Shown piece after piece: positions 19,199-44,757 of a stretch of 64,000 nt of DNA (positions are counted from its first letter, which is position 1; the number at the start of each line of letters is the position of its first letter). The position numbers were made by a program, and so were the translations under genes. The stretch comes from a virus. Location: IMG/VR virus record IMGVR_UViG_3300018414_000007, positions 17,107-81,106 of that record; one strand, 5' to 3'. Under the pieces are notes generated by a model that was not told the DNA's origin, made no database searches, and saw only the letters and a list, made by a program, of their open reading frames with translations.

Positions 19199-21085
19199 AT
19201 AGAAAGTAAAATAAATTTTGTAGGTCCAGAGGATTTATACAAAGAGGAAGGTAATCAACTATATGATCTAAAATCTATAGAAGATTGCCTTTCTTGGTTA
19301 AAGACATTATCATCAGTATCTTTAGATACAGAAACAGAAGGATTTTTTAATTTTAAGAATAAAATTATAATGCTTCAGTTATCTGACGGTAAAGAAGTTT
19401 GGGTGATAGATGTAAGAGGAAAAGAATACTATAATAAGTTAAAACCTGTATTAGAAAGTATTTTAGTATTAGGTCAAAATTTAAAGTTTGATTACAAATT
19501 CTTAAAATTTGAAGGAATAGAACTAAATAATATATATGATACATTCTTAGCTGAATGTGCTTTAACTAACGGTCTTACTGAAAGGCAATTAGGATTAGGA
19601 GCTATTGCTAAGAAGTATTTAGATGTTAATTTAGATAAATCTGTTAGAAATCAATTTATAGGATTAGAAGGTAAACCCTTTACATTCAAACAAATTATAT
19701 ATGGTGCAGAAGATGTACTGTATTTACATAAAATAAGAGAATTACAATTACAGAAAGCAGCAGAGTTAGATCTAGTAGATTATATACTATTAGAATGTCA
19801 AGCTTGTCTTGCAATCAGTGATATTGAATATAATGGTCTTGGATTTAATCCTCAAGCTTGGTTAGATTTAGCTAAAAAGGTAAATAGTAATATACCTCAG
19901 CTAGAATTAGAATTAGATCAGTTTATATTATCTGAACCAAAGAAGTATTATAAGTTTATTAACCAAACTCCTCAATTAGATATATTTGGAGGTGAAAGTA
20001 GAAGAGTATTAGTTGAATGGAGTAGTCCTACACAAATGCTTAAGCTACTTAAAGTAGTCTTAAATGATCCAAATTTAGAAAAGACTGAGGAAAAAGAAAT
20101 TGCTAAATATCAATTTGATTATCCATTTATTAGTAAATTCATAGATTATAAGAAAGAAGCTAAACTTGCTTCTACTTATGGTGAAGATTTTATTAAGTAT
20201 GTTAATCCTGTTACAGGTAGAATCCATAGTGATTTTTGGCAGATTCTAGTTACTAGTAGAGTTAGTTCTAATAATCCTAATTTACAAAACCTTCCAGCTA
20301 AAAATGATTATTTAAATTGTTTTGTAGCAGATAAAGGTAAGAAAATAATAGGTATAGATTACAAAGGACAAGAAGCAAGAATAGCTGCTTGTTTTAGTAA
20401 AGAAGCTACTTGGTTAGATGCTATTAAAGATGATAAAGACTTACATGGTGAAGTTGCTAAGCTTATGTTTAATATTACAGATGCTGAAGTAAGAAATAAA
20501 CCAGATTTTCTTAGAGGTAAATCTTATAGAGATATAGCTAAGAATATTAACTTTATGGCTTTATTTGGTGGTACTAAATGGAAGTTAAGTAAAATGCTTT
20601 TGTGTAGCTTAGATGAAGCTCAGGATCTATTAGACAGATACTTTTCTGCAACTAAGAACTTACAAGTATATTTAAATAAATGTGCTTCTTATGGCCTTAA
20701 AAGAGGTTATATAAGAAGTGGTAAACCATATAGTGCTATTAGATGGTTTGAGAATTGGAAAGAAAATTTAGATATTTATAAAGACTCTAAAATTATTGGA
20801 GAAATTACAAGAAACTGTTTTAATAGTCCAATTCAATCTACTGCAGCTATTACTACTAAATTAGCATTAATTAAACTAAGAGATTATATAAAAGATAATT
20901 CTTTGTCTAACAAAGTAAAGATTATTCATGTAGTTCATGATGCAATATATACTGAAGTAGATGATGATATTTGTAATGAATTTGCAGAAATTCAATCAAA
21001 TATAATGAAAAAGGCTGGTAAAGTATTCATACAAGATTTAATTATGGATACAGATATAACCATAGATATATATTGGAAAAAATAA
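19199..21085 (+). CDS. DNA polymerase, family A, with 3'-5' exonuclease domain
   Basis: The 628-residue enzyme replicates the phage genome. The exonuclease motif SLDTETEG (Asp43, Glu45) lies upstream of the only plausible in-frame ATG (19370), so translation must start earlier. No ATG, GTG or TTG is in frame before the TAG at 19193. ATA at 19199, six bases after AAGGAGG, is the best start. Polymerase motifs: A, IGIDYKGQEARIAA (Asp387); B, RDIAKNINFMALFGG; C, VVHDAIYTEVDDD (Asp581). In motif C the usual VHDE is VHDA. The non-AUG start with a hidden SD suggests tight translational control. Confidence 0.93.
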   Translation: MESKINFVGPEDLYKEEGNQLYDLKSIEDCLSWLKTLSSVSLDTETEGFFNFKNKIIMLQLSDGKEVWVIDVRGKEYYNKLKPVLESILVLGQNLKFDYKFLKFEGIELNNIYDTFLAECALTNGLTERQLGLGAIAKKYLDVNLDKSVRNQFIGLEGKPFTFKQIIYGAEDVLYLHKIRELQLQKAAELDLVDYILLECQACLAISDIEYNGLGFNPQAWLDLAKKVNSNIPQLELELDQFILSEPKKYYKFINQTPQLDIFGGESRRVLVEWSSPTQMLKLLKVVLNDPNLEKTEEKEIAKYQFDYPFISKFIDYKKEAKLASTYGEDFIKYVNPVTGRIHSDFWQILVTSRVSSNNPNLQNLPAKNDYLNCFVADKGKKIIGIDYKGQEARIAACFSKEATWLDAIKDDKDLHGEVAKLMFNITDAEVRNKPDFLRGKSYRDIAKNINFMALFGGTKWKLSKMLLCSLDEAQDLLDRYFSATKNLQVYLNKCASYGLKRGYIRSGKPYSAIRWFENWKENLDIYKDSKIIGEITRNCFNSPIQSTAAITTKLALIKLRDYIKDNSLSNKVKIIHVVHDAIYTEVDDDICNEFAEIQSNIMKKAGKVFIQDLIMDTDITIDIYWKK

Positions 21086-21103
21086 ATATTAAATTAAAAA
21101 ATA

Positions 21104-22747
21104 ATGCAAATAAGAAATAAAAAAAGAAAGGCATTAGAAGCAGAAATACAAAGAGAAAAAGACCCCAACTTTAACCCTGTAGAACATATAGTAGTAAACT
21201 CATTAGAGTATATTTTTGGTAAAGATCCTTCTGAATGGGGGATTTTATGTAAACCAATTGAAACTGTAGTTTCATATATGTGGGAAGAAAAGAAAAGAAA
21301 GCCTTTACATAAAAGGTTAAAACCTAAAAAGAATTTTCCTACTAATAGTCCTTCTACTAGTTTTGAACCAGTAAGCGTAACTTTTAGTTCAGGAACATCT
21401 ACAATAATATCTTCAACACCTAGTTGGGAATTAACAGAATCTTCTGATCAAGAAGAATCAATTGTAGATATTGAATTTGATGGAGAAGAATCTACTTCTA
21501 TTACTGATCATGGTGTAATTACAGCTACTGATGCACAAAAATTTAATTACTATACTCATGATGCTAAGTTGTCAAATCTTAATCTTGGAGAATTACAAGA
21601 GTATATAAATATATTATATAAGTATATTAATAAAGCTAACCAAAGAATAGAGCATTATAGTAATATAATGTTAACTAGTCCTAATCCTGCAATTAATGAA
21701 TTAAGAAACAGTTCAATTTCAAATAGAGACGAACTTCTTAATAAATTAAATCTTATTAAAATCTATATAAGTAATTTTAAAGAAAGTGTTGTTAAACAAC
21801 CATTAGAAGAGATAAATAAAAAGGAATCTTTTAATGATAAGATTAAACAGGGATTTAGATCTTTTTATTCAGCTACACTTGGATATCCTACTGTTATAAA
21901 GGGTTATATAATCAATGATAAAATATTTACTAATAATAGTGAATTAGCTTTATATGCAAGTACTAATAAAATACTTTGGGATCTTACAAAAATGATTTTA
22001 AGGGTTTCAAGATTCAATTATGAAACAAATGAAATTGAAACTAAAACTAAAATTGTTTCATTTAAACCTTTAAGTAAAGTTAAAGAAAGTTTAATACTTT
22101 CAGTACTACCTTTATTAGTAGATTTTAAAATCTGTTCATTTAAAAATAGTAACAATTTCTTTAATGATAAGATAGATAGAGAAAAGTTTCTTTATACTAA
22201 AACTCCATTTTGGAAAGTTAAAACAGTTAAATCCTTAATTGGTAAAAACAGATTAAGTAATTCCGTAGTTTCTATTGAAAATCCAGATAAAGGAGATGAA
22301 ATTTACTTTTTATTAGGTGATTGTAAAGTAGAAAATAAAGAACTTTGTGGTTATAGTATACCAATGGATAAGACTATAACTATAAATTCTATAGTAAAAG
22401 TAAAGGATAGTAAAATATCTAAATATAATTTAAAACAAGTAACAAATACAGAGGCTGAAGTTATCTCTATTAAACCAAATTCTTCTAGTAAAAAGATATC
22501 TAAGAATTCTAATAATCATAGATTGGATATTATAACTATTAGAAATAGATTTAAAGAGATGAAAGTCTATGCACAAGATCTAAAATTTATTAAAAACAAA
22601 TCAATTAAAACAAATGACAGCAGTATTAAAAAAGAAAGTGGTAATAAAGAGCCTTACCACGGAATCTCCAAAGACTGGTTTGAAAGTACAATCCAAAATA
22701 TCTACCAAAGTGAGTACATCCAATACACATCCAGTCCAAACTTCTAA
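21104..22747 (+). CDS. Large hypothetical protein
   Basis: The 547-residue protein has a basic N-terminus, a Ser/Thr-rich low-complexity acidic stretch near residues 85-150, a helical region, and a beta-rich C-terminal half. No domain recognised. Its last 134 nt overlap the ATP-grasp gene in another frame. The overlap could reflect a diverged C-terminus or a frameshift; both frames look coding. It may belong to the amidoligase cluster that follows. Confidence 0.65.
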   Translation: MQIRNKKRKALEAEIQREKDPNFNPVEHIVVNSLEYIFGKDPSEWGILCKPIETVVSYMWEEKKRKPLHKRLKPKKNFPTNSPSTSFEPVSVTFSSGTSTIISSTPSWELTESSDQEESIVDIEFDGEESTSITDHGVITATDAQKFNYYTHDAKLSNLNLGELQEYINILYKYINKANQRIEHYSNIMLTSPNPAINELRNSSISNRDELLNKLNLIKIYISNFKESVVKQPLEEINKKESFNDKIKQGFRSFYSATLGYPTVIKGYIINDKIFTNNSELALYASTNKILWDLTKMILRVSRFNYETNEIETKTKIVSFKPLSKVKESLILSVLPLLVDFKICSFKNSNNFFNDKIDREKFLYTKTPFWKVKTVKSLIGKNRLSNSVVSIENPDKGDEIYFLLGDCKVENKELCGYSIPMDKTITINSIVKVKDSKISKYNLKQVTNTEAEVISIKPNSSSKKISKNSNNHRLDIITIRNRFKEMKVYAQDLKFIKNKSIKTNDSSIKKESGNKEPYHGISKDWFESTIQNIYQSEYIQYTSSPNF

Positions 22748-23558
22748 AATTCCTACTTATCGTCCACAAGTAAGAAGTAGACATCCTTCACATAATGGAT
22801 TAAGGACATTATTAGCTAAATTACCTTTTAAATCTTTAATTAGATTTGGAAGTACTACCGAAGTAAATGATGGTATAAAAAGAGTAGAACTTAATTCTCC
22901 TGAAGCTATTAGAAAAAGTAGTAATAAACTACTTATGAAACAAAGCTTCTCTGAAGGTAATGTTAAAACAGCAGATTGGACTAATCAAGTTGCTAATGTA
23001 CCTGCAATTACAGAAAACTGGAAATATAAGTGTGTAATCAAAAAGCATTTTGGTAGTAGAGGTGAAGGTAATACTTTAGTATCTACTCAAAAGGAGTTTG
23101 ATTTGTTTATGAAGGGTAAAAGTGCTTCTGAATATATATTTGAGAGATTCTATAATTATGATAGAGAATACAGACTTCATGTAAATGAAGATGGTTGTTA
23201 TTATACTTGTAGAAAAGCATTAAAATCAGATACTCCAGAAAGCTCTAAATGGTTTAAAAATGATAGTAATTGTGTTTGGTATTTAGAAACTAATCCAAGC
23301 TTTGATAAACCAGTAAATTGGGATAGTGTTGTTAGTCAGAGTGTTAAAGCTCTTAAAGCAGTAGGATTAGACTTTGGAGCAGTTGATTTGAGAATTCAAT
23401 CAGCTAAAGATTCAAAAGGTAGAGTTAGGGAAGATCCTGACTTTATTGTAATTGAAATTAATAGTGCTCCAAGTTTGAATGATAGTGAAAGTATTGTATT
23501 TGCTAAATACTTAGAAGTACTTCCTACCATGTTAAAGAAAAAGTTTTTAAAAAGTTAA
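22614..23558 (+). CDS. ATP-grasp ligase (amidoligase cluster)
   Basis: The 314-residue protein has ATP-grasp hallmarks: a strand with VIKKHFGSRGEGN (phosphate-binding loop), FERFYNYDREYRLHV, FGAVDLRI and the metal-binding DFIVIEINSAPSL. ATP-grasp enzymes activate a carboxylate as acyl-phosphate and join it to an amine. The first 60 residues are basic and disordered. It begins a run of amidoligase-type genes. The start follows an A-rich leader; the 134-nt overlap upstream is odd but plausible. Confidence 0.85.
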   Translation: MTAVLKKKVVIKSLTTESPKTGLKVQSKISTKVSTSNTHPVQTSKIPTYRPQVRSRHPSHNGLRTLLAKLPFKSLIRFGSTTEVNDGIKRVELNSPEAIRKSSNKLLMKQSFSEGNVKTADWTNQVANVPAITENWKYKCVIKKHFGSRGEGNTLVSTQKEFDLFMKGKSASEYIFERFYNYDREYRLHVNEDGCYYTCRKALKSDTPESSKWFKNDSNCVWYLETNPSFDKPVNWDSVVSQSVKALKAVGLDFGAVDLRIQSAKDSKGRVREDPDFIVIEINSAPSLNDSESIVFAKYLEVLPTMLKKKFLKS

Positions 23559-23570
23559 TATAAAAGAATA

Positions 23571-24383
23571 ATGAATAAACATAAAAATTTTAAAGTATTT
23601 GTAGTAGGATTTAATACTGGCTACGCTAGGTGGATACAAGGTGAACTTGCTAAAAATATGAAAGAGGCTGATGTTGTTCTGTTTACAGGGGGAGAAGATA
23701 TTTCTCCCTCTTTATACGGAGAAACAGCTGGAAGACATACATTTCCCTATGATAGACCAAATGGTCAATTACCTTTAAGAGATGAATTTGAGGTAAGGAA
23801 TTATAAAGAAGCGTTAGAGTTAGGTAAACCTATGTGGGGTACTTGTAGAGGTGCTCAATTGTTATGTGCTTTAGCTGGTGGTAAATTAGTACAGGATATG
23901 AGTCATCATAGTTCTCATAAATTGTATTTCTATGATAATGAGTATGAGTGTGTAAGTAATACTTTACATCACCAAATGCAATATCCTTACACTATGAAAG
24001 ATGGTGAAGACTATAAAATCTTAGCTCATGCTATAGGTCAGAGCCCTTACTTCTTAGATGGTAATGATAAACCTCTTATTATGCCTGAAACAGTGAAAAA
24101 ACAAGGATATGCTAAACCTCTTATTAAAGAACCAGAGTTTGTATATTATCCTAAAATTAAATCTTTAGGTATACAAGGACATCCTGAAATGATGTCTACT
24201 AATAGTGATATGGTTTTAGTATGTCATGCATTTTTAAATCTTTTGATAGAGGATAAGTTAAATGATGCTCTCCTTTTAAATATTCCTGTTAAATCTATTA
24301 TAAGTAGAGCTTGGGATTTTAATTTTACAAAAGAAGAAAATGCATTATTAAATCAAATTAAAGAAGTCCCTATCGAGGTATAA
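23571..24383 (+). CDS. Class I glutamine amidotransferase / peptidase C26-like protein
   Basis: The 270-residue protein has a nucleophile elbow GTCRGAQLLCALAGGKLVQD with Cys in the right place, an early VVLFTGGEDISPSLYGE, and a late SLGIQGHPEM carrying the His and Glu of the triad. The closest type is gamma-glutamyl-gamma-aminobutyrate or gamma-glutamyl hydrolase (C26). In this cluster it may hydrolyse or supply glutamine-derived groups for the ligases. Confidence 0.85.
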   Translation: MNKHKNFKVFVVGFNTGYARWIQGELAKNMKEADVVLFTGGEDISPSLYGETAGRHTFPYDRPNGQLPLRDEFEVRNYKEALELGKPMWGTCRGAQLLCALAGGKLVQDMSHHSSHKLYFYDNEYECVSNTLHHQMQYPYTMKDGEDYKILAHAIGQSPYFLDGNDKPLIMPETVKKQGYAKPLIKEPEFVYYPKIKSLGIQGHPEMMSTNSDMVLVCHAFLNLLIEDKLNDALLLNIPVKSIISRAWDFNFTKEENALLNQIKEVPIEV

Positions 24384-24384
24384 A

Positions 24385-25014
24385 ATGAAAGAAGTAACAA
24401 TAGATAATATATTAGAGATTTTAAAAGAAGATATAGCAGGTTTAACTGAAGATAATAGAGAATCTACTATAGAAAAAATACAGTCTTATTTAATTAAATT
24501 TAGTTTCTTAACAAAAATTCCAAATATATTATTTGTTTATGGAAGCTTAAGAAAAGGAGAATTTAATTTTAAAAAGATTCAAGAAACTTTTGGGGAAAAT
24601 AGTATAATACATCTTTATCCTACAAGAGCAGATTATATGACTCTTTATGATTTAGGTGATTATCCTGTAATGATGAAGGCTAAAGGAACTTATCATACAT
24701 TTGGTGAATTAGTTTACTGTACTGATGAAGTAGTTGAAGTTATTAAACAAATGGAGTTAGAAGCAGGTTATCTATATGATACTTGTAATATATGGATTGA
24801 AAATAATAATAATCCATCTACAAAATATAGATTAATAAGTGTTCCTACTTATGTAGCAGGACCTCGCCTTAAAGATAAAATTTTCTTAAATCCAAGTACA
24901 TATCCAAGAATTACTTGTGGAGACTGGAAAAAGTATTTAAAATCTGTAGAAATAGAAGATACAAGAACTGATTTAGAAAAATTGCAAGAATCTTATTTTG
25001 GTTATTGCTACTAA
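24385..25014 (+). CDS. Gamma-glutamylcyclotransferase-like protein
   Basis: The 209-residue protein has the GGCT signature NILFVYGSLRKGEFNF followed by a beta-barrel (YMTLYDLGDYPVMMKAKGTY, FGELVYC) and an acidic pair in QMELEAGYLYD, where the family keeps its catalytic Glu. These enzymes cyclise and remove gamma-glutamyl groups. The first 50 residues are a helical extension. It starts one base after the preceding stop. Confidence 0.85.
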   Translation: MKEVTIDNILEILKEDIAGLTEDNRESTIEKIQSYLIKFSFLTKIPNILFVYGSLRKGEFNFKKIQETFGENSIIHLYPTRADYMTLYDLGDYPVMMKAKGTYHTFGELVYCTDEVVEVIKQMELEAGYLYDTCNIWIENNNNPSTKYRLISVPTYVAGPRLKDKIFLNPSTYPRITCGDWKKYLKSVEIEDTRTDLEKLQESYFGYCY

Positions 25015-25029
25015 ATTAAATATATATAA

Positions 25030-25869
25030 ATGAAAATAAAAATTGATAATTGGAAAATAGGTTCTGATCCAGAAGTTTTCCTTCATAATAAAAGTACAAA
25101 AGAAGTAGTATCTGCAATTCCCTTTATTCCGGGAGATAAACATGATCCATACCAAATACCTACATTACCAGAGGGTCATATGATTCAAACTGATAATATA
25201 ATGGTAGAGTATTGTTTACCTCCTACAAGTGATTATAGGGCTTTAATTAAGTCTTTTAGAGACTGTATAGCATATACTAATAATACTATACCAAGTGAAT
25301 TAGAAGTGGTTGTTAAAGCTTCTGCAAATGTAAGTGAACAATACTTACAAGATGAACAAGCTAAAAGATTTGGATGTGATCCAGATTTTAATGCTTGGAC
25401 AGATGATTTAAACAATCCTCCTAATAGTGATACTAATCTTAGAACTTGTGGTGGTCATATCCATATTGGCTATGATAATCCAGACTATGAACTTTCAAAG
25501 AAATTAATTAAAGCGTTAGATATATTTTTAGGTGTTCCATCTATTCTTTTAGATCCTGATAAAGATAGAAAGAAAATGTATGGTAAAGCTGGTGCACATA
25601 GGTTAAAAACTTATGGTGTAGAATATAGAGGTTTATCTAATTTCTGGTTGGCAGAAGAAGAATTAACTCAGTTAGTATTTAATGGAGTTAGAATGGCCAT
25701 TGCTATGATTAATAGTTCTGAATCTTACTTAGATAAGATGAGTGATACATTACAGTTAAAGATTCAAACTTGTATTAATACAGGAGACGAAGAGTTAGCT
25801 CAACAACTTGTACATCAACTTAGTTTATCTAGTTTATTGGCTGGTTCTACTAAAGTATATATTGACTAA
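25030..25869 (+). CDS. Amidoligase, COOH-NH2 ligase type 2 (phiEco32-like)
   Basis: The 279-residue protein has KIGSDPEVFLHN at the start and CGGHIHIGYDNPDYELSKKL centrally, matching phage phiEco32-type amidoligases with a glutamine-synthetase-like fold. Arg and Glu residues in YGVEYRGLSNFW probably line the active site. It should form an amide from a carboxylate and an amine with ATP. A strong stem with a terminator-like 3' half follows the gene. Confidence 0.85.
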   Translation: MKIKIDNWKIGSDPEVFLHNKSTKEVVSAIPFIPGDKHDPYQIPTLPEGHMIQTDNIMVEYCLPPTSDYRALIKSFRDCIAYTNNTIPSELEVVVKASANVSEQYLQDEQAKRFGCDPDFNAWTDDLNNPPNSDTNLRTCGGHIHIGYDNPDYELSKKLIKALDIFLGVPSILLDPDKDRKKMYGKAGAHRLKTYGVEYRGLSNFWLAEEELTQLVFNGVRMAIAMINSSESYLDKMSDTLQLKIQTCINTGDEELAQQLVHQLSLSSLLAGSTKVYID

Positions 25870-25881
25870 TTAAAGAAACTT

Positions 25882-25950
25882 AAGAGTAGTGATAGCCTTG
25901 AGTTCGCTTTAGTTACTAATTTATTGGTAGCCTCCGGCTATCCTACTTTT
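25882..25950 (+). terminator. Terminator/antiterminator-like stem after amidoligase 1
   Basis: Bases 25882-25897 pair with 25936-25950 (15 bp, one bulge). A competing hairpin GGTAGCC (25926-25932) with GGCTATC (25936-25942) ends in TACTTTT, like an intrinsic terminator. The two folds cannot coexist, so this may be an attenuator. Confidence 0.5.
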
Positions 25951-25968
25951 AAATTAAATAAAACAAAT

Positions 25969-25989
25969 ATGTGTGGATTAATATTTTGA
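25969..25989 (+). pseudogene. Orphaned start of class II glutaminase (MCGLIF-stop)
   Basis: ATG TGT GGA TTA ATA TTT TGA encodes MCGLIF and stops. Class II glutaminases begin MCGI/MCGL, and the nearby GATase lacks this start. TGTGGATTAAT (25972-25982) reappears as TGTGGCTTAAT (26628-26638) at the GATase Cys. A second decoy start ATGTGTGGATTA lies at 25989. This looks like the 5' end of the GATase gene cut off by the HNH insertion. Confidence 0.6.
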
Positions 25990-26015
25990 TGTGTGGATTA
26001 TATTCACTATCTTTG
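25985..26015 (+). promoter_or_regulatory. Bacteroides-type promoter of HNH endonuclease 1
   Basis: TTTG (25985-25988), 19 bp spacer, TATCTTTG (26008-26015). With the -7 box centred at -7, +1 falls near 26019, two bases before the HNH ATG. The mRNA would be essentially leaderless. Confidence 0.65.
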
Positions 26016-26020
26016 TATTA

Positions 26021-26551
26021 ATGAAAATATGTAAAAAATGTAATGTTGAAAAATCTCTAGGAGAGTTTCACAAAGATAAAAGAACTAAGGATGGATTATA
26101 TAAATGGTGTAAATCTTGTAAAAAAGAGTATGATTTAATATACAGAAAAACAGATAAAATTCAAAATTTATATAAGTCTAAAGAGTATAGAAATAGAAAA
26201 AAGGAATATAAAAAATGGAGAGATATGACTGATCCAAGAGAACAACTTTTAATATCTGCTAAAGCTAGGGCTAAAAAGTATAATATACCTTTTAATTTAA
26301 CTATAGATGATATAGAATTAAGAGCTTATTGCCCTTTATTGGAAATTAAATTAGAAAGAAAACAATATGGAAAGGTGGGTTCATTTAATCCAAATTCCCC
26401 TTCTTTAGATAGAATAATTCCTAGTTTAGGTTATGTAAAAGGAAATATAGAGGTAATTTCAATGAAAGCAAATATAATGAAAAATAACGCAAGTATAGAA
26501 GAATTAAAAACATTTGCGAATAATATATTAAGGTGGTATGATTATGATTAA
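26021..26551 (+). CDS. HNH homing endonuclease 1
   Basis: The 176-residue protein has an N-terminal Cys4 finger (MKICKKCNVEKSLGEF, CKSCK) and a C-terminal HNH core: CPLLEIKLE, then SPSLDRIIPSLGYVKGNIEV, then SMKANIMKNNAS. Free-standing homing endonucleases cut intronless or uninserted alleles and spread by repair. It sits between the orphaned start and the body of a class II glutaminase, flanked by 11-bp imperfect repeats. A ten-residue-longer start falls inside the promoter, so the ATG at 26021 is used. Its N-terminal finger resembles that of the 38438 HNH. Confidence 0.88.
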   Translation: MKICKKCNVEKSLGEFHKDKRTKDGLYKWCKSCKKEYDLIYRKTDKIQNLYKSKEYRNRKKEYKKWRDMTDPREQLLISAKARAKKYNIPFNLTIDDIELRAYCPLLEIKLERKQYGKVGSFNPNSPSLDRIIPSLGYVKGNIEVISMKANIMKNNASIEELKTFANNILRWYDYD

Positions 26552-28142
26552 AATAATATTAATATTAGCATTTATAAATTATTTGCTATACTTCCTTAAT
26601 GGAAGAAAAAAGACTAATTTAGCTCTTTGTGGCTTAATTGGTTACTCTGGACAAGAGAACTATAATATAGACAAAATAAGGTTTCTAATGCTATGGAATA
26701 GTGTAGAAAGAGGTAAAGATGCTACAGGCATATATACCCCCTCAACAGGACTTATAAAAGATAATGAACCTGCTGGTAAGTTTCTATTTCAAAGTCATTT
26801 TAAAAAATTAGTTGATGATAATCAATTAATAGCTCATGTAAGAGCTAAAACAATTGGAGCAAATTTAGTTAAAAACGCTCATCCATTTGATGAAGAGAAT
26901 ATTGTATTAGCTCATAATGGTACTTTAGTTGACTATGTAGCGTTAGCATCCAAATATGATATGAAAGCTCTTAATTGGGATGTAGATTCTCAAGTATTAT
27001 CTTTTGGTATTAATAGAGCATTTAATGCTGAAACTACTTTAGATAACTTAAATATTGAAACTTTAAGTGAATATAAAGGTGCTGCTGCTTTACTATTTTA
27101 TAGTAAAAACTTAGATATGATATTTGTATTTAAGGATAAAGAGAGACCTTTATTTTATGGGTATGATCTTGATGGAGGAATGTATATGTCTTCTATTGAA
27201 GAGTCATTAAAAGCTGCAGGATTATTTGAAATTAAAGCGTTTACTGATAATACTTTGTATGCTATTGATCATGGTGAAATTGTAAAGACTTGGGTTTATA
27301 AAACCTATGCTGAACTTAATAAAACAGCTTATGTTGGTAAAGTTCGAGGGAGGGAACCAGGTCAGAGATTCCCAAAGTTAAAAAAAGGGGAAAGAGGAAT
27401 AGACATCACAAATGGAACCACTAAAGCATATTGGTTCTTAGATATGTGGCTATATTCTAATACCCAAACATGGAATCATCAAAGAGGAATCTATGGTAAG
27501 TTTGCTGAAATGAAAACTGGAAGGTTTTATTTAGTAACTGGATTCTATGCTGAAGATATAATGTTTGTTCAGGTAAAAGATGAGAATGGAAATGATGGAA
27601 TGGCAGCCTTAAGTTCATTTGATATAGATAGGTGTATTCCTCAACCTGAACAGTTATTTAGAATAACGGCTCCCCTTGTTGCTAAAAAGACAAAACAAAA
27701 ACTTTGGGAAAAAGGACAAATAGTTGAATTGATGAGTTATGATATAACAGAAGGATCAGTTTCTTTCTGGTCTGATTCAGAAAATGCAGAATACGAAATT
27801 CCTATGAAGTGTTGTAAACCATTAACACCTCAAGAAGTTATAGATTTCTGCTTAGAAACAGAAGATCCTAAAGATAAAGGAACTAAAGAACCATTACTTA
27901 TTCAACCCGCTCCTGAACCATCACCTTTTATAGAAAATACACCTGAGCCTGAACCTTTAGGAGATTTCATATCAACTCCAGTATTCTTGGGAGCTTTGGA
28001 ATTAATTGAAAGTGGATTAGGTAAATTAGAAGAAAAGTATGATGAAAATGGAGATTTAACCCCAGAAATTAATGCTATACGTATGGACATCACAAATTGC
28101 AAAGATAAGACATATCTTGACAACTTACTGGTACATAATTAA
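26538..28142 (+). CDS. Class II glutamine amidotransferase, 5' end displaced by HNH insertion
   Basis: The Ntn-hydrolase domain is clear: CGLIGYSGQENYN, RGKDATGIYTPSTG, IAHVRAKTIGAN, LAHNGTLVDY. Cys31 should be the N-terminal nucleophile, but here 30 residues precede it, including a hydrophobic stretch (IKIILILAFINYLLYFL). Intact relatives start MC. Either a leader is removed, an unusual bypass or RNA event joins MCGLI upstream, or the enzyme is inactive. The C-terminal half (about residues 280-534) is unknown with a Pro-rich linker near residue 460. It overlaps the HNH gene by 14 nt. Confidence 0.85.
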   Translation: MIMIKIILILAFINYLLYFLNGRKKTNLALCGLIGYSGQENYNIDKIRFLMLWNSVERGKDATGIYTPSTGLIKDNEPAGKFLFQSHFKKLVDDNQLIAHVRAKTIGANLVKNAHPFDEENIVLAHNGTLVDYVALASKYDMKALNWDVDSQVLSFGINRAFNAETTLDNLNIETLSEYKGAAALLFYSKNLDMIFVFKDKERPLFYGYDLDGGMYMSSIEESLKAAGLFEIKAFTDNTLYAIDHGEIVKTWVYKTYAELNKTAYVGKVRGREPGQRFPKLKKGERGIDITNGTTKAYWFLDMWLYSNTQTWNHQRGIYGKFAEMKTGRFYLVTGFYAEDIMFVQVKDENGNDGMAALSSFDIDRCIPQPEQLFRITAPLVAKKTKQKLWEKGQIVELMSYDITEGSVSFWSDSENAEYEIPMKCCKPLTPQEVIDFCLETEDPKDKGTKEPLLIQPAPEPSPFIENTPEPEPLGDFISTPVFLGALELIESGLGKLEEKYDENGDLTPEINAIRMDITNCKDKTYLDNLLVHN

Positions 28143-28152
28143 AGAATATATA

Positions 28153-29805
28153 ATGTTAGAAGAGATAAAAACAAAAGAAGAATTAAAAAACAAAAAAGAT
28201 TTTCTTTTAAAGAACCCATTTCATCCTAATAAGTTTATATACGCCGAAGAAGGAGAATCTCCTAAAGAGATTGTAATAATTAATGGAAGAGGATATGATG
28301 TAGATAAAAGTAATTTATCAGAAGATTTTTACCATCCTGGGTATTTCTTTTTGGCTGGAACAGGAGCAATGCTTGCGTTTGTTACTGCTACTAAAGCTAG
28401 AAGAGTGTTTGATCCAGAAAACCCTGAAACCTGGTGTCAAATAGTTTCTGAGTACAAACCTTCTAAAGAAAGGTATAAGAACGTTGAAACATCTGATTAT
28501 GAAACTTATAATGCTTCTCTTAAAAAGATTATTTCACAAGCTTATGGTGAATTAAAACCAGTATCTAATACAGAAGAGGAGTTATTAAACTTAAGTTTTG
28601 TAAAAGGAACTGTTAATCCTGATTTTTGGTTTCCTTTACAAGAAAAACAACATTTAGACAAGATGTTACCTTATAAAAAGTTTGAAAATATATATCACAA
28701 GGTTGATATAAATGATCTTGAGCATCAAATGAGATCTCAAGGATACCCAGAAGAAGAAATAAAGAAAAGAATAACAGAAGCTTTACAAAAGAATATTTTG
28801 TATGGTGTTGACTCTTTAACTTACACAGCTTTTGAAGGAATAAGATTTACATTTGGTGTTGAAATTGAGACTTGTATTGGAAGACTTGATGATGATCAAA
28901 TTAAATTTTTAAATGTTAAAGCAGTTCATGATGGTTCTCTAAGAGATAAAAATGGTAATACTCCTGGTGGAGAATATGTTACTGGTGTATTAACTGGAGA
29001 TGCTGGATTGACTCAATTAAGTGACTTATGTAGAGCTTTGTCTTCTAAATGTAGAGTAAATGCTCAGTGTGGAGTTCACGTTCATGCAGGAAGTTTAAAT
29101 TGGAATAGAGAAGATATTGTTTATTCTTATATTTTAGCAGAAATGTTAGAAGATGAGTTATTTATGATGCTTCCTAAATCAAGAAGAAGTAATACTTACT
29201 GTAGAAGATTAACTGAACTTACTTTAGATAAAGTTCCTTTGTTAAAAACAGCAGTTAGATCTGAATATAATATTCTTATAGATACAATCTATAATGATAT
29301 TTTGAAAGAAGTAACTCAAGTTAAAAATAAAGGTAAAATATATTCTGGAGTAGAAGAAGGAGTAGAAGAACCAATAATTGCTAGTGGGATTTATAACAGA
29401 GAAAAGCAACATCCAAATGGAGCTAAATGTGGTTATGATAAATCTGCACAAAGATATTGTTGGTTAAACTATGTTACTCTTATGTATAATACTAAAGGGG
29501 GTAAAAATAGTAACACTTTAGAGATTAGAAGTCATAGTGCTACAATGAATTTCAAAAAGATAAAGAATTGGATTAAGATTTTCTTTGCTTTTTGTAAGTA
29601 TGTAGAAACTAGTAAATCTAAGATTAGAAAAGGAAATGTAACTCTTGCTCATGTAATTAAAAAGGCATATCCTAAAACTGGAGATAAACTTCTTAAGTAT
29701 ATTGAAGAAAGAAAACAAGTGTTTAATTCTCATGATGAGTCTGTAGATTATGTAGAAATCTCAGAAGAAAGAAAGACTATAAAGGAGATAGTAGCAGCAG
29801 AATAA
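28153..29805 (+). CDS. Amidoligase (Amidoligase_2 family)
   Basis: The 550-residue protein has a 230-residue N-terminal region of unknown function and then the amidoligase core: FTFGVEIETCIGR, VKAVHDGSLRD, GGEYVTGVLTGDAGLTQL, CGVHVHAGSL and LEIRSHSATMNFKK. The family has a glutamine-synthetase-like fold and forms amide bonds in secondary metabolism or peptide tagging. An in-frame ATG at 28072 overlaps the preceding gene; 28153 is preferred. Its stop overlaps the next ATG (TAATG). Confidence 0.85.
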   Translation: MLEEIKTKEELKNKKDFLLKNPFHPNKFIYAEEGESPKEIVIINGRGYDVDKSNLSEDFYHPGYFFLAGTGAMLAFVTATKARRVFDPENPETWCQIVSEYKPSKERYKNVETSDYETYNASLKKIISQAYGELKPVSNTEEELLNLSFVKGTVNPDFWFPLQEKQHLDKMLPYKKFENIYHKVDINDLEHQMRSQGYPEEEIKKRITEALQKNILYGVDSLTYTAFEGIRFTFGVEIETCIGRLDDDQIKFLNVKAVHDGSLRDKNGNTPGGEYVTGVLTGDAGLTQLSDLCRALSSKCRVNAQCGVHVHAGSLNWNREDIVYSYILAEMLEDELFMMLPKSRRSNTYCRRLTELTLDKVPLLKTAVRSEYNILIDTIYNDILKEVTQVKNKGKIYSGVEEGVEEPIIASGIYNREKQHPNGAKCGYDKSAQRYCWLNYVTLMYNTKGGKNSNTLEIRSHSATMNFKKIKNWIKIFFAFCKYVETSKSKIRKGNVTLAHVIKKAYPKTGDKLLKYIEERKQVFNSHDESVDYVEISEERKTIKEIVAAE

Positions 29806-31397
29806 TGTGTTTATTAATCGCAGTAAAGTCAGGAGTAGATAAGTCTAGTGACATCCTCTTTGACGCTATAAGAACAGGAGCTACTACTAATACAGATGGA
29901 ATTGGGTATGCATTTAAAAAAAGCAAACAAAATAAAATTTGGATTAGTAAAGGTTTTCAAGATGTAGATAAATTCATTACAACTCTACAAAAGAAGCACT
30001 TAAAACCAGAAGATGAACTTATTGTTCATTTAAGAATTGGTAATAAGGGTGCTAAAACTGTTGAAATGAATCATCCATTTGTTATATCTGATGATGCTGA
30101 TACAATTTTATCTAATGATGAATATGTACAGCTTCCAGTACTTGCACATAATGGTACTTTTCATAGTTACTCCATAACTAATAGTCAACTATCAGATACA
30201 TTCTATTTTACTAAAGACTTTATGTCTATTCCAGAAATACAAAGTCTTCTGAAAAGAGATACAGATACTTTTAAAAGAATCTTTACTTCTACACTGGGAA
30301 TTAATAGACTAGCTCTATTATTCCCAGATAATACTCCACTAATAACACTTGGTAACTTTATTGAATCAGAAGGATATTTATTTTCTAATGAATCATATAA
30401 GAAAAAGGTGTATAATGTTGGAGGATATGAAAGTTGGGATGATGAAAGGTATGCTACTAGTCGTGGTGGTGGACAAAATATATCTGATGGATGTTGGCAA
30501 AATGGAGTGTACCACAGTGGAAGTAAATACCCAGTAACACATTCTAGTATTCCAATTAATACTCCACATAAAGATACTAAATGGTTAGATAGAGATGATG
30601 AAGATGAAGATGTTGTTATTGCTAATAAGAAGTTTTGTAAAGTAGGAGAAAGAAAAAGAGATGTTAGGGGCTTTTTACAAGCTGATCCTAAGTTTGATAT
30701 TATTCCTCCAACAACTCCATTTTGGTGTATATTTAACAAAGCTACTAAACAATGGTATGATTCAACTGAAGGAAATATAGCTTATGTACCTCGTGCATAT
30801 CCTGTTAATCAGTTTGATAGAACATTCTTTACTCCAACAGTATTTAACTATACTCATTTCACCTATTATAGTCCAATAGGAGATTCAATAAAAGGGATAA
30901 ATCCTACAAAAAGATATCGTATTTATAACTTTGATTCTAGAGATCCTAGAGGAGCTACTTCAAAAGGTGTACATTTAGTTAATGAAATAAATTCTTATAA
31001 AAATGGTGAACCTCTTTATGGTACAACTGTTAGATCTTTGTGGTTAACTACTGAATCTTTAGTAGAACTATTTATACCTCAGTTAGAATCACCAAAACTA
31101 ACATTAGCTTATAGAACTCTCTATAGACTTATGCATAGATTTAGCACCCCTTCTAAGAATTTAATGAATGCTACTGAGAAAGCTATCAGAGGAGCTGAAA
31201 AGAATGGAAAAGAATCTAATATTAACTTTAAGAATCAACAAGGATTAGAGTTATTAGGATTGAAGTTATTCTATAATTATTTATTAATAGACCTTCTTCC
31301 TTTTGATCAAGCTAGATTGAAATTTCTTGAAGTTCAAGATTTAACTCCAGACAATACAGTTTCTTATAAAGAAGCTTTAGAAGCATTAAATAATTAA
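29805..31397 (+). CDS. Class II glutamine amidotransferase 2
   Basis: The 530-residue protein begins MCLLIAVKSGVDKSSDILFD, with Cys2 as the expected Ntn nucleophile once Met is removed, and has TNTDGIGYAF, VHLRIGNKG and LAHNGTFHSY. It is thus an intact counterpart of the disrupted GATase upstream. The C-terminal region (after about residue 215) is Tyr/Arg-rich and unknown. It likely provides ammonia from glutamine to one of the amidoligases. Confidence 0.85.
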   Translation: MCLLIAVKSGVDKSSDILFDAIRTGATTNTDGIGYAFKKSKQNKIWISKGFQDVDKFITTLQKKHLKPEDELIVHLRIGNKGAKTVEMNHPFVISDDADTILSNDEYVQLPVLAHNGTFHSYSITNSQLSDTFYFTKDFMSIPEIQSLLKRDTDTFKRIFTSTLGINRLALLFPDNTPLITLGNFIESEGYLFSNESYKKKVYNVGGYESWDDERYATSRGGGQNISDGCWQNGVYHSGSKYPVTHSSIPINTPHKDTKWLDRDDEDEDVVIANKKFCKVGERKRDVRGFLQADPKFDIIPPTTPFWCIFNKATKQWYDSTEGNIAYVPRAYPVNQFDRTFFTPTVFNYTHFTYYSPIGDSIKGINPTKRYRIYNFDSRDPRGATSKGVHLVNEINSYKNGEPLYGTTVRSLWLTTESLVELFIPQLESPKLTLAYRTLYRLMHRFSTPSKNLMNATEKAIRGAEKNGKESNINFKNQQGLELLGLKLFYNYLLIDLLPFDQARLKFLEVQDLTPDNTVSYKEALEALNN

Positions 31398-31436
31398 AAT
31401 AAACTTGTAAATTAAAATAAAAAACATTAAATTTGT

Positions 31437-31697
31437 ATGGAAAATTTAGCATCAATCCTTATTGGTATAGCATTAATTGCAGCAGGAATACTGTCTTATT
31501 GGTTATTTAAACCAAAAGATAAGAAGTCTATAGATAGTAATACACCTATTGAAGTAGATGAAAAGAAAGCTGAAGTAACTGAAGCAATTGTGACAAAACC
31601 AAAGAGAGTGTATAAGAAAAAAGTAGCAAAAGAAGAGGAGATTAGTGGAGAAGGAGAAAGTTTACCAAGTACAACAGAAGGAGGACAGCAATCTTAG
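31437..31697 (+). CDS. Small membrane-anchored protein
   Basis: The 86-residue protein has an N-terminal helix (LASILIGIALIAAGILSYWLF) and a Lys/Glu-rich disordered tail ending in Ser/Gly. It overlaps the reductase gene by 53 nt. No domain recognised. Confidence 0.65.
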   Translation: MENLASILIGIALIAAGILSYWLFKPKDKKSIDSNTPIEVDEKKAEVTEAIVTKPKRVYKKKVAKEEEISGEGESLPSTTEGGQQS

Positions 31698-33540
31698 TAA
31701 TAAGATTCTATCTGATATTGTAGTATTTAACAAATATGCAAAGTATATTCCAGAACTTAATAGAAGAGAGTCTTGGGAAGAGATAGTAACTAGATATGTA
31801 AATATGCTTACAGATAAATATCCACTCTTAACAGAGGAGATATTAGTCAAAAGTAAATTTATATTTGAAAAGAAGGTATTACCTTCTATGAGAGCATTAC
31901 AATTCGCTGGTATTCCTATTGAAAGGAATCCTAGTAGAGTATATAATTGTGCTTACTTACCAGTTGATGATTACAGAGCTTTTAGTGAAGCTATGTTTTT
32001 ATTATTAGGTGGTACAGGAGTAGGATATAGTGTACAATTTGCTCATATAGAAAAATTACCAGAGATAGTTAAACCAACTAAAACTAAACGTTACTTAGTT
32101 AGTGATAGTATAGAAGGTTGGGCAGATTCCATTAAAGCTCTTATAAAGAGTTATCTGGGATATACTAATGCAAAGCCAAGATTTGATCTTTCTGATATTA
32201 GAAAGAAAGGAGCTAGGTTAATAACTGCTGGAGGTAAAGCTCCAGGTCCAGAACCACTAAAGACTTGTTTGTTTCAAATTGAAACATTACTAGAAAGGAA
32301 AGAAAATGGGAGTAAACTAACAGATGTAGAATGTCATGATATTATGTGTTATATTGCAAATGCAGTATTAGCAGGTGGTATTAGAAGAGCTGCAATGATT
32401 AGTTTATTCTCATTTGATTCCGAAGCTATGCTTACTAGTAAAACAGGTAATTGGTGGGAATTAAATGAACAAAGAGGTAGAGCAAATAACTCTGCTGTAA
32501 TTGTTAGAAATAGAATAAACAAAGAAGATTGGGATAGAGTTTGGAAGATAATTGAAAATAGTAATTCAGGAGAACCTGGAGTCTATTTTACAAATGATGC
32601 TAATTGGGGTACTAACCCTTGTTGTGAAATAGCATTAAGACCATTTCAATTTTGTAATCTTACTGAAGTAAATGTATCTGATGTTGAATCTCAAGAAGAT
32701 TTAAATGAGAGAGTAACAATAGCTGCATTCTTTGGTACACTTCAAGCAGGATTTACAGATTTCCATTATCTAAGAGATATATGGAGAAAAACAACTGAAA
32801 AAGAAGCTCTGATTGGAGTAGGTATGACTGGAATAGGTTCTGGTCAAGTATTAAAATATGATTTAAAAAGTGCTAGTAAAGAAGTTAAAAAAGAAAATGC
32901 AAGAGTATCTGATATTATATCTATCAACTCTGCAGCTAGGTGTACAACAATTAAACCTTCTGGGACTAGTAGTTGTGTACTTGGTACTTCTAGTGGAATT
33001 CATGCATGGCATGATACTTATTATCTCAGATCTATTAGAGTTGGTAAAAACGAGTCTTTATATACTTATTTAAGTATATATCATCCAGAACTAATAGAAG
33101 ATGACTTTTTTAAACCAGAGACACAAGCAGTAATAAGAATTCCACAGAAAGCTCCTAAAGGTTCTATATTAAGAACTGAAAGTGCTTTAGACCTATTAAA
33201 TAGAGTAAAGAAATTTAATCTTGAGTGGGTTAAATCTGGTCATAATAAAGGTAGTAATACTAATAATGTATCAGCTACAATATCAATTAAACCTGAAGAA
33301 TGGGTAGAAGTTGGTGAATGGATGTGGAATAATAAAGAGACATTTAATGGATTAAGTGTATTACCATATGATAATGGTAGTTATATCCAGGCACCCTTTG
33401 AAGTAATAACTGAAGAGGAATACAATAAGAAATTTGAAACACTAAAAAATATAGATTTAACAAAAGTAATAGAACTAGATGATAGTACACAGCATTCTCA
33501 AGAAGCTTCTTGTGCAGGAGGACTATGTGAAGTTACTTAA
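31645..33540 (+). CDS. nrdJ: Class II (B12-dependent) ribonucleotide reductase
   Basis: The 631-residue enzyme reduces ribonucleotides using adenosylcobalamin. Motifs: MRALQFAG, first redox Cys102 in RVYNCAYLP, active-site NPCCEIALRPFQFCNL (Cys326/327), KPSGTSSCVLGTSSGIH, and a C-terminal CAGGLC (Cys623, Cys628) that shuttles electrons from thioredoxin. This pattern is closest to the monomeric RTPR type. The start is a GTG at 31645 after AGAGGAG. It gives an anaerobic-gut phage an oxygen-independent dNTP supply if the host has cobalamin. Confidence 0.9.
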   Translation: MEKEKVYQVQQKEDSNLSNKILSDIVVFNKYAKYIPELNRRESWEEIVTRYVNMLTDKYPLLTEEILVKSKFIFEKKVLPSMRALQFAGIPIERNPSRVYNCAYLPVDDYRAFSEAMFLLLGGTGVGYSVQFAHIEKLPEIVKPTKTKRYLVSDSIEGWADSIKALIKSYLGYTNAKPRFDLSDIRKKGARLITAGGKAPGPEPLKTCLFQIETLLERKENGSKLTDVECHDIMCYIANAVLAGGIRRAAMISLFSFDSEAMLTSKTGNWWELNEQRGRANNSAVIVRNRINKEDWDRVWKIIENSNSGEPGVYFTNDANWGTNPCCEIALRPFQFCNLTEVNVSDVESQEDLNERVTIAAFFGTLQAGFTDFHYLRDIWRKTTEKEALIGVGMTGIGSGQVLKYDLKSASKEVKKENARVSDIISINSAARCTTIKPSGTSSCVLGTSSGIHAWHDTYYLRSIRVGKNESLYTYLSIYHPELIEDDFFKPETQAVIRIPQKAPKGSILRTESALDLLNRVKKFNLEWVKSGHNKGSNTNNVSATISIKPEEWVEVGEWMWNNKETFNGLSVLPYDNGSYIQAPFEVITEEEYNKKFETLKNIDLTKVIELDDSTQHSQEASCAGGLCEVT

Positions 33541-38437: not shown

Positions 38438-38977
38438 ATGAAGAATTGTATCATATGTAAAGAAGTACAGCCATTAGATAACTTTTATAAACATAAGGGT
38501 ATGTCTGATGGCTTACTTAATAAATGTAAGTCTTGTTGTAAAAATCAGAGTAAGAAAAGAGAAAAGTTTCTAAGATTAAATAATCCTGAATGGGTTAAAA
38601 AGGATAGAAATAGGTGTAGATTAAAATTTCATAGGCTTAGTAAAAATTGGAAACAGCCCTCTGTAGAAGTTAAAAGAAAGAGAAATATGAATTATAAAAA
38701 GAATTATCCAGAAAAATATGCTGCTCATTTAGCTTGTAAAAATTTAATCAAAGGAGATTCAAGTAATCACTTACACCATTGGTCTTATAATGAACAACAT
38801 TATACAGATTGTATTGAACTAAATTCTGAATGTCATAATTATGTACATAGATTTATCATATATGATCAAGAGTATATGATGTATAGAACTATAGATAATA
38901 AACTTTTAGATACAAAGGAAAAGCATTTGGATTATATAAATCAATGTTTTAAAGACAATTTAATTAATAAACTTTGA
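38438..38977 (+). CDS. HNH homing endonuclease 2
   Basis: The 179-residue protein has an N-terminal Cys finger like HNH 1 (MKNCIICKEVQPLDNFYKHK, CKSCCK) and an HNH core LHHWSYNEQHYTDCIELN then CHNYVHRF. It is inserted between the SSB-like gene and the primase and overlaps the primase start by 4 nt. It is a free-standing homing endonuclease. Confidence 0.8.
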   Translation: MKNCIICKEVQPLDNFYKHKGMSDGLLNKCKSCCKNQSKKREKFLRLNNPEWVKKDRNRCRLKFHRLSKNWKQPSVEVKRKRNMNYKKNYPEKYAAHLACKNLIKGDSSNHLHHWSYNEQHYTDCIELNSECHNYVHRFIIYDQEYMMYRTIDNKLLDTKEKHLDYINQCFKDNLINKL

Positions 38978-42028: not shown

Positions 42029-42347
42029 ATTCTTTAAATTTGTTGATTGGAGAGTAAAACAAATAGTTACTGTTCTAGCAAGTAAAGGAAAAGAATATAG
42101 TACAGAAGATAATAAACTGCATAATTTTGATAAAGCTTCAATTAAATCTGGAAAGATTAGAGAAGAAGTAATTAAAGATTTTATGTTAAAACATGAAATT
42201 AGTGTAGATGATATTATTGATAATATTAAGGAAGGTAAACTTCCAAGTAAAAGTTTAGTAGCTGAAAAAGTAGGAGATATAATTAACTATTATATTCTAC
42301 TAGAAGCTTCAATATATGATAGAATAGATAAGGAGGTGAATGGATAA
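42015..42347 (+). CDS. DUF1599 / Nmad1-like small protein
   Basis: The 110-residue all-helical protein has VTVLASKGKEYSTEDNKLHNFDKA (partly) and EKVGDIINYYILLEASIYDR. The pattern KGxEYxxxDNxLxNF...EKxxDixNYxxLLxA matches DUF1599 / nucleotide-modification-associated domain 1, related to all-alpha NTP pyrophosphohydrolases. It may sanitise or modify nucleotides. The start is GTG. Confidence 0.6.
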   Translation: MKEDKFFKFVDWRVKQIVTVLASKGKEYSTEDNKLHNFDKASIKSGKIREEVIKDFMLKHEISVDDIIDNIKEGKLPSKSLVAEKVGDIINYYILLEASIYDRIDKEVNG

Positions 42348-43224
42348 GGAAAGAGTAAGAAAGTTTTTATTAGCTAATAGAGGATATTTAAAGAAAGGAG
42401 CTAATACTGTATCTATAAGAGTCTTTGGAGTAAATACTTCAGATAAAGTAGATTTAGTTAAATTAGTACAACAAGAAATTAGGAGAGGAACTAAAGTTAA
42501 AGTAGAAAAAGCCATAGAATTAGAGGAAAAACCTCAAAAAGCTTCTTTTAATATTAACAGTTATAAGAATCTTGATATTCTAGTTGTAGGAGATTTACAT
42601 GCACCTTTTGCTCTACCTGATTATATTGAATGGTGCTATCAACTTAGTAAAGAGTATAAAACAAATAAAACTATCTTTATAGGTGATGTAATAGATTCAC
42701 ATAGTTGGAGCTATCATGAACATGATGTAGATGGTTTAAGTGTAGGACATGAATTAGATGCTGGTATTAGACAACTAAGAGTAGCATATAAAATGTTTCC
42801 TGAAGTTGATATAACTCTTGGAAATCATGATTTACTTATTGCTAGGAAAGCTAAAACAGCTGGATTATCAAGAAGGTTTATTAGAGATTTAGGAGAAGTA
42901 TTAGAAGCACCTAAAACATGGAATTTTGTACATGAAGTTAAATATCATGATGTTAATTATATTCATGGTACAACTGGTAATGCTTTTACAAGAGCTAAGG
43001 ATAGTAGAACAAGTACAGTGCAAGGTCATTTACATAGCCAAGCATTTGTACAATATAGTGTTTCTGAAAAAGATGCAATTTTTGGATTGCAAATAGGATG
43101 TGGTGTAGATCATCATAAATATGCATTTGAATATGCTAAACCTATGACTAAGAAACCAATAATTAGTGCAGGAGTTGTTCTTGAAAATGGAACACTTCCT
43201 ATTTTAAGATTAATGAAATTATAA
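42340..43224 (+). CDS. Calcineurin-like metallophosphoesterase 1 (with HTH-like N-terminus)
   Basis: The 294-residue protein has a 70-residue helical N-terminus (KERVRKFLLANRGYLKKGA) and then a metallophosphoesterase core: LVVGDLHAPF (Asp, His), FIGDVIDSHSW (Asp), TLGNHDLL (Asn, His), YIHGTTG and VQGHLHSQ. These are the metal ligands of the family. Its target could be a nucleotide, DNA end or phosphoprotein. The start ATG follows AGGAGG. Confidence 0.85.
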   Translation: MDKERVRKFLLANRGYLKKGANTVSIRVFGVNTSDKVDLVKLVQQEIRRGTKVKVEKAIELEEKPQKASFNINSYKNLDILVVGDLHAPFALPDYIEWCYQLSKEYKTNKTIFIGDVIDSHSWSYHEHDVDGLSVGHELDAGIRQLRVAYKMFPEVDITLGNHDLLIARKAKTAGLSRRFIRDLGEVLEAPKTWNFVHEVKYHDVNYIHGTTGNAFTRAKDSRTSTVQGHLHSQAFVQYSVSEKDAIFGLQIGCGVDHHKYAFEYAKPMTKKPIISAGVVLENGTLPILRLMKL

Positions 43225-44574: not shown

Positions 44575-44757
44575 ATGTCAGAAAAGATTAAAACATTGAT
44601 AGATTTCCAAGCAGCATCATTTGATAGAACAGCTTACATAGAAATAATAGGAGATGAAGTAGTTTATGATGTATCAGATGGAGAATATGGTCCTTGTTAT
44701 TTTTCATTGAAAGAATTAGAAGAAAAAATTAAAGAACATAAGGAGAAATTAAAGTAA
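44575..44757 (+). CDS. Small hypothetical protein
   Basis: A 60-residue protein, acidic and beta-rich with a basic C-terminal helix. Its TAA overlaps the next ATG (TAATG). No domain recognised. Confidence 0.65.
   Translation: MSEKIKTLIDFQAASFDRTAYIEIIGDEVVYDVSDGEYGPCYFSLKELEEKIKEHKEKLK

Follow-up and report, generated by a model that had tools for sequence, protein, structure and literature searches.

An amide-ligase cassette in a crAss-like phage and its likeness to a known phage 'peptidoglycan modification' module

We analyzed a window of 64,000 nucleotides, i.e., bases 17107-81106 of an 81,106-base IMG/VR virus record (IMGVR_UViG_3300018414_000007), which carries an amide-bond cassette at 21104-31397 with seven enzyme genes, all on the + strand. 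In order, these encode an ATP-grasp ligase, a C26 peptidase with the fold of class-I glutamine amidotransferases (GATases), a gamma-glutamyl(amine) cyclotransferase (GGACT), a COOH-NH2 ligase, a class-II GATase, an Amidoligase_2 protein and a second class-II GATase. We are highly confident that the cassette is a crAss-like copy of a module known from other phages as 'peptidoglycan modification'. The gene set is thus largely not new; less usual are the second GATase-II and a hydrophobic extension on the first one. With regard to function, we see about even chances that this early cassette installs, exchanges or trims gamma-glutamyl or amide groups, likeliest on a host envelope peptide. For the individual parts of this reading, a combination of amide ligation and gamma-glutamyl trimming is probable given the enzyme families, the envelope as target is a tentative preference somewhat short of even, and superinfection exclusion as purpose is possible, if rather doubtful. 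We infer the direction of each reaction, the substrate and the purpose from family chemistry and genomic context.

Proteins of the window were subjected to Pfam, PHROG, NCBIfam and PADLOC profile searches. The Pfam and PHROG matches bear out the seven amide-bond genes in the order, positions and strand given in the original prediction, and we consider the gene identities as named here close to certain. The cassette proteins show no PADLOC match to a defence system. Family alignments comprised 21-63 homologues, or four to five in the case of the second GATase-II; of the positions strongly conserved in them, the window retains nearly all. That is, a loss of active sites in most members, named in the original prediction as a sign against a functional cluster, is not seen.

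The ATP-grasp ligase (22614-23558, + strand; phrog_2599, 5.8e-36) has the conserved residues K105, E185, R187, K201, D258, E281 and N283. Its start is uncertain (GTG at 22710 is possible), since the open reading frame (ORF) overlaps that of an upstream 547-aa protein by 134 nt and homology to its relatives begins only about 45 residues in. Compared with the PDB, the family profile matches the alpha-L-glutamate ligase 7qyr (4e-12) and RimK (6e-10), and also reaches cyanophycin synthase and D-Ala-D-Ala ligase. Judged from these profile matches, the closest solved relatives are RimK-type alpha-L-glutamate ligases. Given a score of 38 bits, i.e., below the curated cut-off of 143 of the RimK alpha-L-glutamate ligase family TIGR00768, the protein is best taken as a relative and not a member of that family.

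This relationship introduces the strongest rival to an envelope precursor as target, namely a modification of host or phage proteins (e.g., ribosome or RNA polymerase subunits), where the RimK-like and glutamine synthetase (GS)-fold ligases would add glutamate or amines and the C26, GGACT and N-terminal nucleophile (Ntn) enzymes would edit. RimK itself glutamylates ribosomal protein S6, and 11 of the 24 ATP-grasp family members have a match to R2K_2 as well, which has been proposed to act in protein modification during conflicts between phage and host (PMC4431377). Furthermore, the GS-fold search extends to PafA, the Pup ligase. On the other hand, these similarities are at superfamily level, a linked carrier or target gene was not found, and GGACT and C26 enzymes classically work on small gamma-glutamyl compounds. 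We therefore regard protein modification as unlikely, albeit as the alternative to be taken most seriously.

The C26 peptidase (23571-24383, + strand; PF07722 Peptidase_C26, 62.8 bits) has an intact Cys-His-Glu triad (Cys92, His204, Glu206), and its top NCBIfam match, a gamma-glutamyl-CDP-amidate hydrolase, is weak. The original prediction counted three ammonia-handling enzymes. Since the class-I enzyme falls into the C26 gamma-glutamyl hydrolase family, gamma-glutamyl cleavage appears likelier than ammonia supply, and this count does not hold. The adjacent GGACT/AIG2-type cyclotransferase (24385-25014, + strand; PF06094, 49.4 bits) retains the invariant residues Tyr52, Gly53 and Glu124.

One operon with both ligases and gamma-glutamyl removers would also suit a make-protect-deprotect chemistry, in which the product would be a free, small gamma-glutamyl metabolite (a signal, a counter-defence molecule or an inhibitor) and gamma-glutamyl would serve as protecting group. 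Such a group is used by BtrJ/BtrG in butirosin synthesis. It also fits that linked peptide ligases in secondary metabolism often work in series (PMC4431377). However, the annotated or profiled neighbours included no recognisable transporter or tailoring enzyme (methyl- or acyltransferase, pyridoxal phosphate enzyme) and in a lytic infection there is hardly time to secrete products, such that we consider a free metabolite quite improbable.

The COOH-NH2 ligase of the phiEco32-like type 2 (25030-25869, + strand; PF14395, 60.2 bits; phrog_3815, 8.5e-70) and the Amidoligase_2 protein with its GS/GCS-like fold (28153-29805, + strand; PF12224, 48.3 bits) both exceed their Pfam cut-offs, and the motifs GxDPE and HxH/ExR are retained across the two ligases. 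The former keeps the invariant residues G11, D13, E15, D55, E60, H143, H145, R180 and R200. The amidoligase, which probably starts at 28153, has an additional N-terminal region of about 225 residues and retains GxExE, HxH, N466 and ExR (numbering from the ORF start 28072). Sequence searches for solved structures gave none for either ligase. A Foldseek comparison of the amidoligase model, which is of middling confidence, ranks the YbdK-type structure 1tt4 best (3e-4), followed by GS, GCS and PafA.

The first GATase-II (26538-28142, + strand; PF13522 GATase_6, 48 bits) retains C31, R102, N127, G128 and D150. Residues 31-250 of its structural model form a high-confidence Ntn domain, while the confidence of the C-terminal half is too low for interpretation; Foldseek lists the GlmS glutaminase 1xff as best match and also PurF, asparagine synthetase and EgtC. 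This protein has no Met-Cys (MC) start, i.e., the catalytic Cys31 sits behind a 30-aa hydrophobic N-terminal extension. The same arrangement of a hydrophobic stretch followed by lysines/arginines ahead of the Cys is found in a related 92-kb contig (IMG/VR 3300001097_000003, locus L001), whereas most other homologues show an MC start or a candidate start near the Cys. Class-II GATases require an N-terminal Cys for activity, so the leader would have to be removed or the enzyme would be inactive. Given the intact residues, we favour removal. It is conceivable that the first GATase-II is a membrane-tethered precursor, that cutting its N-terminal helix exposes the Cys and starts the amide chemistry at a lipid-linked envelope precursor, and that the second glutaminase is cytoplasmic; we consider this scenario improbable.

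The second GATase-II (29805-31397, + strand) starts with MC and matches GATase_4 below the Pfam cut-off. Nevertheless, it has the class-II features, i.e., the N-terminal Cys2 as well as the R, NG and D residues, with C2, R77, N116, G117 and D131 being invariant in 4 homologues. As a single query against viral contigs it gave no match. Besides the window, L001, L154/L155, L158, L160, L162 and L166 have a second GATase-II behind the amidoligase, the proteins of L154 (241 aa) and L158 (225 aa) being hardly more than the Ntn domain; in L047, a gene of this type is the sole class-II GATase. With the exception of L001 and L047, these loci have several replication genes in common with the window (drawn from helicase, primase, exonuclease and ribonucleotide reductase (RNR)), while L001 shares RNR. 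Because of these shared replication genes, we assign the double-GATase form to a crAss-like sub-lineage.

To assess conservation, we gathered 61 loci, mainly from viral contigs via the COOH-NH2 ligase and complemented by annotated relatives; they include a few near-duplicates, some loci cut by contig ends and two recruited by the amidoligase itself. GATase-II is found in 59 of them, the amidoligase in 58, ATP-grasp in 55, C26 in 47 and GGACT in 19, and nearly all cassette genes (256/257) lie on the strand of the ligase. Among 95 control viral loci (826 kb) fetched for an unrelated reason, none holds any cassette family. Since dozens of phages have these families together on one strand, compared to 0/95 controls, the gene grouping is, by this measure, not due to chance. 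The scattered, non-conserved neighbourhood that the original prediction had named as a further sign against the cluster is thus not observed. Minimal forms occur in L185-L188, where two amidoligases surround one class-II GATase and COOH-NH2 ligase, ATP-grasp and C26 were not detected nearby.

The COOH-NH2 ligase occurs in 316-317 phage records (Pseudomonas, Escherichia, Salmonella, Vibrio, Aeromonas and others), mostly of Pseudomonas, Escherichia and Vibrio along with a crAss-like branch. Where a host is named, nearly all annotated carriers listed are phages of Gram-negative hosts. Scanning bacterial genome contigs with the ligase alignment gave no relative, which is a weak negative from one scan with a single peptide pattern. 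Most homologues are only about 15-50% identical, nonetheless with retained catalytic residues. Such conservation at this level of identity, now seen in a further crAss-like lineage, indicates a lasting selective pressure to maintain an amide chemistry that probably acts soon after infection.

The assignment to crAss-like phages (Crassvirales), made already in the original prediction, agrees with the large terminase (TerL) of the window. Its best match is Cellulophaga phi14:2 (33% identity over 98% of the protein), followed by other Bacteroidota phages, and because TerL is closest to crAss-like phages we take the source phage to be crAss-like. A 5005-aa ORF (46941-61958, - strand) contains MGSDFDVDKLF, in which a candidate (DFDVD) for the DxDxD motif of giant crAss-like virion RNA polymerases can be read by eye.

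A conserved peptidoglycan modification cassette has been described for RIO-1, phiEco32, 7-11, PA11, tf, MR299-2, LUZ24, PaP3 and CW02, for which superinfection exclusion was hypothesised (PMC5498523); the name is used likewise in PMC11945000, and later papers cite Iyer 2009 and Hardies 2013 as sources of the module. The window contains PF14395 and PF12224, class-II GATase and ATP-grasp genes on the same strand, a cyclotransferase and replication-gene neighbours, all of which characterize the module. That is, as in RIO-1/HP1, phiEco32, LUZ24/PaP3, PA11 and 7-11, COOH-NH2 ligase, Amidoligase_2, class-II GATase, ATP-grasp and GGCT are co-directional beside replication genes, which confirms the originally proposed link to the phiEco32-like ligase system. 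Beyond the RIO-1/HP1-phiEco32-PaP3 module, the window has C26 (frequent in other loci), another class-II GATase, the 547-aa protein and an endonuclease gene, and it lacks a protein of about 200 aa. This family, which has no Pfam match, directly follows the COOH-NH2 ligase in 38 loci (e.g., L004:897-1508), with more distant relatives in Salmonella 7-11 and, at a marginal level, in PaP3, and is probably a core cassette component. We also considered it as a hidden fused domain in the window proteins, which was rejected given hhalign probabilities below 1%.

The set had originally been regarded as richer than known ones, which does not stand. PaP3, Salmonella 7-11 (its amidoligase being recognised by profile only) and the E. 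coli phage Bas92 already hold both ligases, GATase-II and ATP-grasp, and PaP3, Bas92 and the crAss-like phi14:2 also have a GGCT/cyclotransferase. Only C26 and the second GATase-II exceed PaP3, 7-11, Bas92 and phi14:2; C26 was not detected in PaP3, yet is present in 47 of the 61 loci. Among Crassvirales, phi14:2 and cr108_1 show ATP-grasp, COOH-NH2 ligase, GATase-II and amidoligase in the order of the window, beside the primase. In contrast to the window, their cassettes hold one class-II GATase (with MC start in cr108_1); C26 went undetected in phi14:2, as did GGACT in cr108_1, which has two extra unknown proteins. L001 is most similar, i.e., it shares the seven enzymes in the same order, a homologue of the 547-aa protein, the GATase-II leader and an intergenic hairpin. 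It differs by an 82-aa membrane-type ORF instead of the endonuclease gene, a 285-aa unknown protein between ATP-grasp and C26, and a different-looking DNA polymerase upstream.

In the window, the cassette is flanked by a family-A DNA polymerase upstream (19370-21085) and RNR downstream (31645-33540), with a dUTPase gene also near. Where the cassette occurs in unrelated phages, it is bordered by genes for primase/helicase, polymerase, RNR or uracil-DNA glycosylase. The proximity to RNR and dUTPase would fit a housekeeping role, where the genes boost ammonia or glutamate supply for nucleotide synthesis, and a role in nitrogen metabolism was proposed for such genes of phage ZRK32 (eLife 2024; PMC10945688). 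The growth effects reported there, however, came from the whole phage and not from individual genes, and two ATP-consuming GS-fold ligases, an ATP-grasp enzyme and gamma-glutamyl cleavers do not make a nitrogen-supply route. We thus hold this explanation to be very unlikely.

In phage HP1, the module genes are expressed immediately (PMC7082346). Such timing, as well as the position in the replication instead of the structural region, also speaks against a virion tag or virion component. Peptides of ATP-grasp, GATase and YtfP/GGCT were detected in preparations of phage SU10, but these had been precipitated with polyethylene glycol and not purified on CsCl, and the proteins are assigned to the early products by the authors (PMC4281155). 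A virion role is the least probable of the explanations considered here.

We thus return to a modification of the host envelope. Early transcription of the operon would yield the RimK-like ATP-grasp ligase and two GS/GCS-fold ligases, which would use ATP to activate carboxylates for coupling to amines, with glutamate as probable building block. C26 and GGACT would cut gamma-glutamyl bonds, the latter with release of 5-oxoproline, and the two Ntn class-II enzymes would either release ammonia from glutamine for use by the ligases or, similar to EgtC, serve as gamma-glutamyl amidases. Acting jointly, the enzymes could install, exchange or trim gamma-glutamyl/amide groups, with a host envelope peptide (e.g., a peptidoglycan precursor) as likeliest target, altered early to favour the resident phage. 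Building as well as trimming is suggested because ATP-dependent carboxylate-amine ligases accompany two enzymes of gamma-glutamyl-cleaving families, and an action on the host soon after infection because of the early expression in HP1 and the replication-side position. An envelope precursor is our best guess due to the published hypothesis, the nearly exclusively Gram-negative named hosts, and the relation to D-Ala-D-Ala ligase and to wall amidation systems, which we take to be distant relatives of the cassette enzymes.

Several points weigh against this assignment. The window enzymes share fold or family and catalytic residues with RimK, YbdK/GCS/GS, EgtC, PuuD and GGACT, but the likeness is at superfamily level and no equivalog cut-off is reached; the bit scores fall far short of those for RimK, PuuD and comparable equivalogs, so that substrates cannot be carried over from them. 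Since related amidoligase genes occur in Clostridium prophages (PMC11318856) and a minimal form of amidoligase and GATase-II exists, the wall may not be the sole target. In addition, activity of the first GATase-II would depend on removal of the hydrophobic leader. Finally, the literature searched yielded no experimental product or phenotype for any cassette member; its signature ligase is present in more than 300 sequenced phage records, none of which has a described product there. Given that Bas92 carries the same block, the question is testable in laboratory strains of E. coli.

The original gene list, including the 547-residue upstream protein, is present in full, but an eighth gene was missed. 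This endonuclease VII/HNH-type gene (26021-26551, + strand; phrog_3322, 2e-32; phrog_1035, 1e-31) splits the enzyme run between COOH-NH2 ligase and first GATase-II. It is not found at the corresponding place in L001 and is probably mobile and outside the pathway. UFV-P2, which carries the cassette genes, provides a parallel, i.e., its gene list shows an HNH gene between amidoligase and GATase (PMC3890496). A surrounding group I/II intron was rejected, given no Rfam match at E<=1 within 21000-32000 and likely exon junctions that, by eye, misfit group I rules.

Just upstream of the endonuclease gene, at 25969-25990, we observe a relic-like ATGTGTGGATTAAT (MCGLI) that resembles a GATase-II start, with a second ATGTGTGGATTA shortly downstream; the GATase-II site compared was 26622-26641. 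ATGTGTGGATTAAT agrees with the real GATase start in 10/11 bases; among 8,972 other overlapping segments of this size, none agrees as well, for a test selected after the match had been seen. This suggests that the endonuclease region landed on an old GATase-II start; however, L001 has a similar leader, yet lacks the endonuclease.

The 547-aa protein (21104-22747, + strand) is accessory. It has no Pfam, PHROG, NCBIfam or PADLOC match, and tblastn against 50,697 phage records found nothing; its sole homologue found is L001:5632-6945 (29% identity). With no family match and a single homologue, we dropped it as a cassette enzyme.

Between the COOH-NH2 ligase and the next gene lies an RNA hairpin (25880-25955, + strand; minimum free energy -28.6, z -5.8) without Rfam match. 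Its architecture recurs in L001 (10808-10876, z -4.6), where the two sides of the stem have both changed and the 9-nt UUCGCUUUA bulge, flanked by GAG/CUC, is invariant. When the exact 14-nt core was searched in viral contigs, the structure was present only in the window and the contig of L001.

Two further observations were made by eye. A second ORF resembling a zinc-ribbon/HNH-type endonuclease is located in the replication region (38438-38977), and three close ORFs (42340-43224, 44757-45284, 45277-46041) show calcineurin-like phosphoesterase motifs (GNHD and similar).

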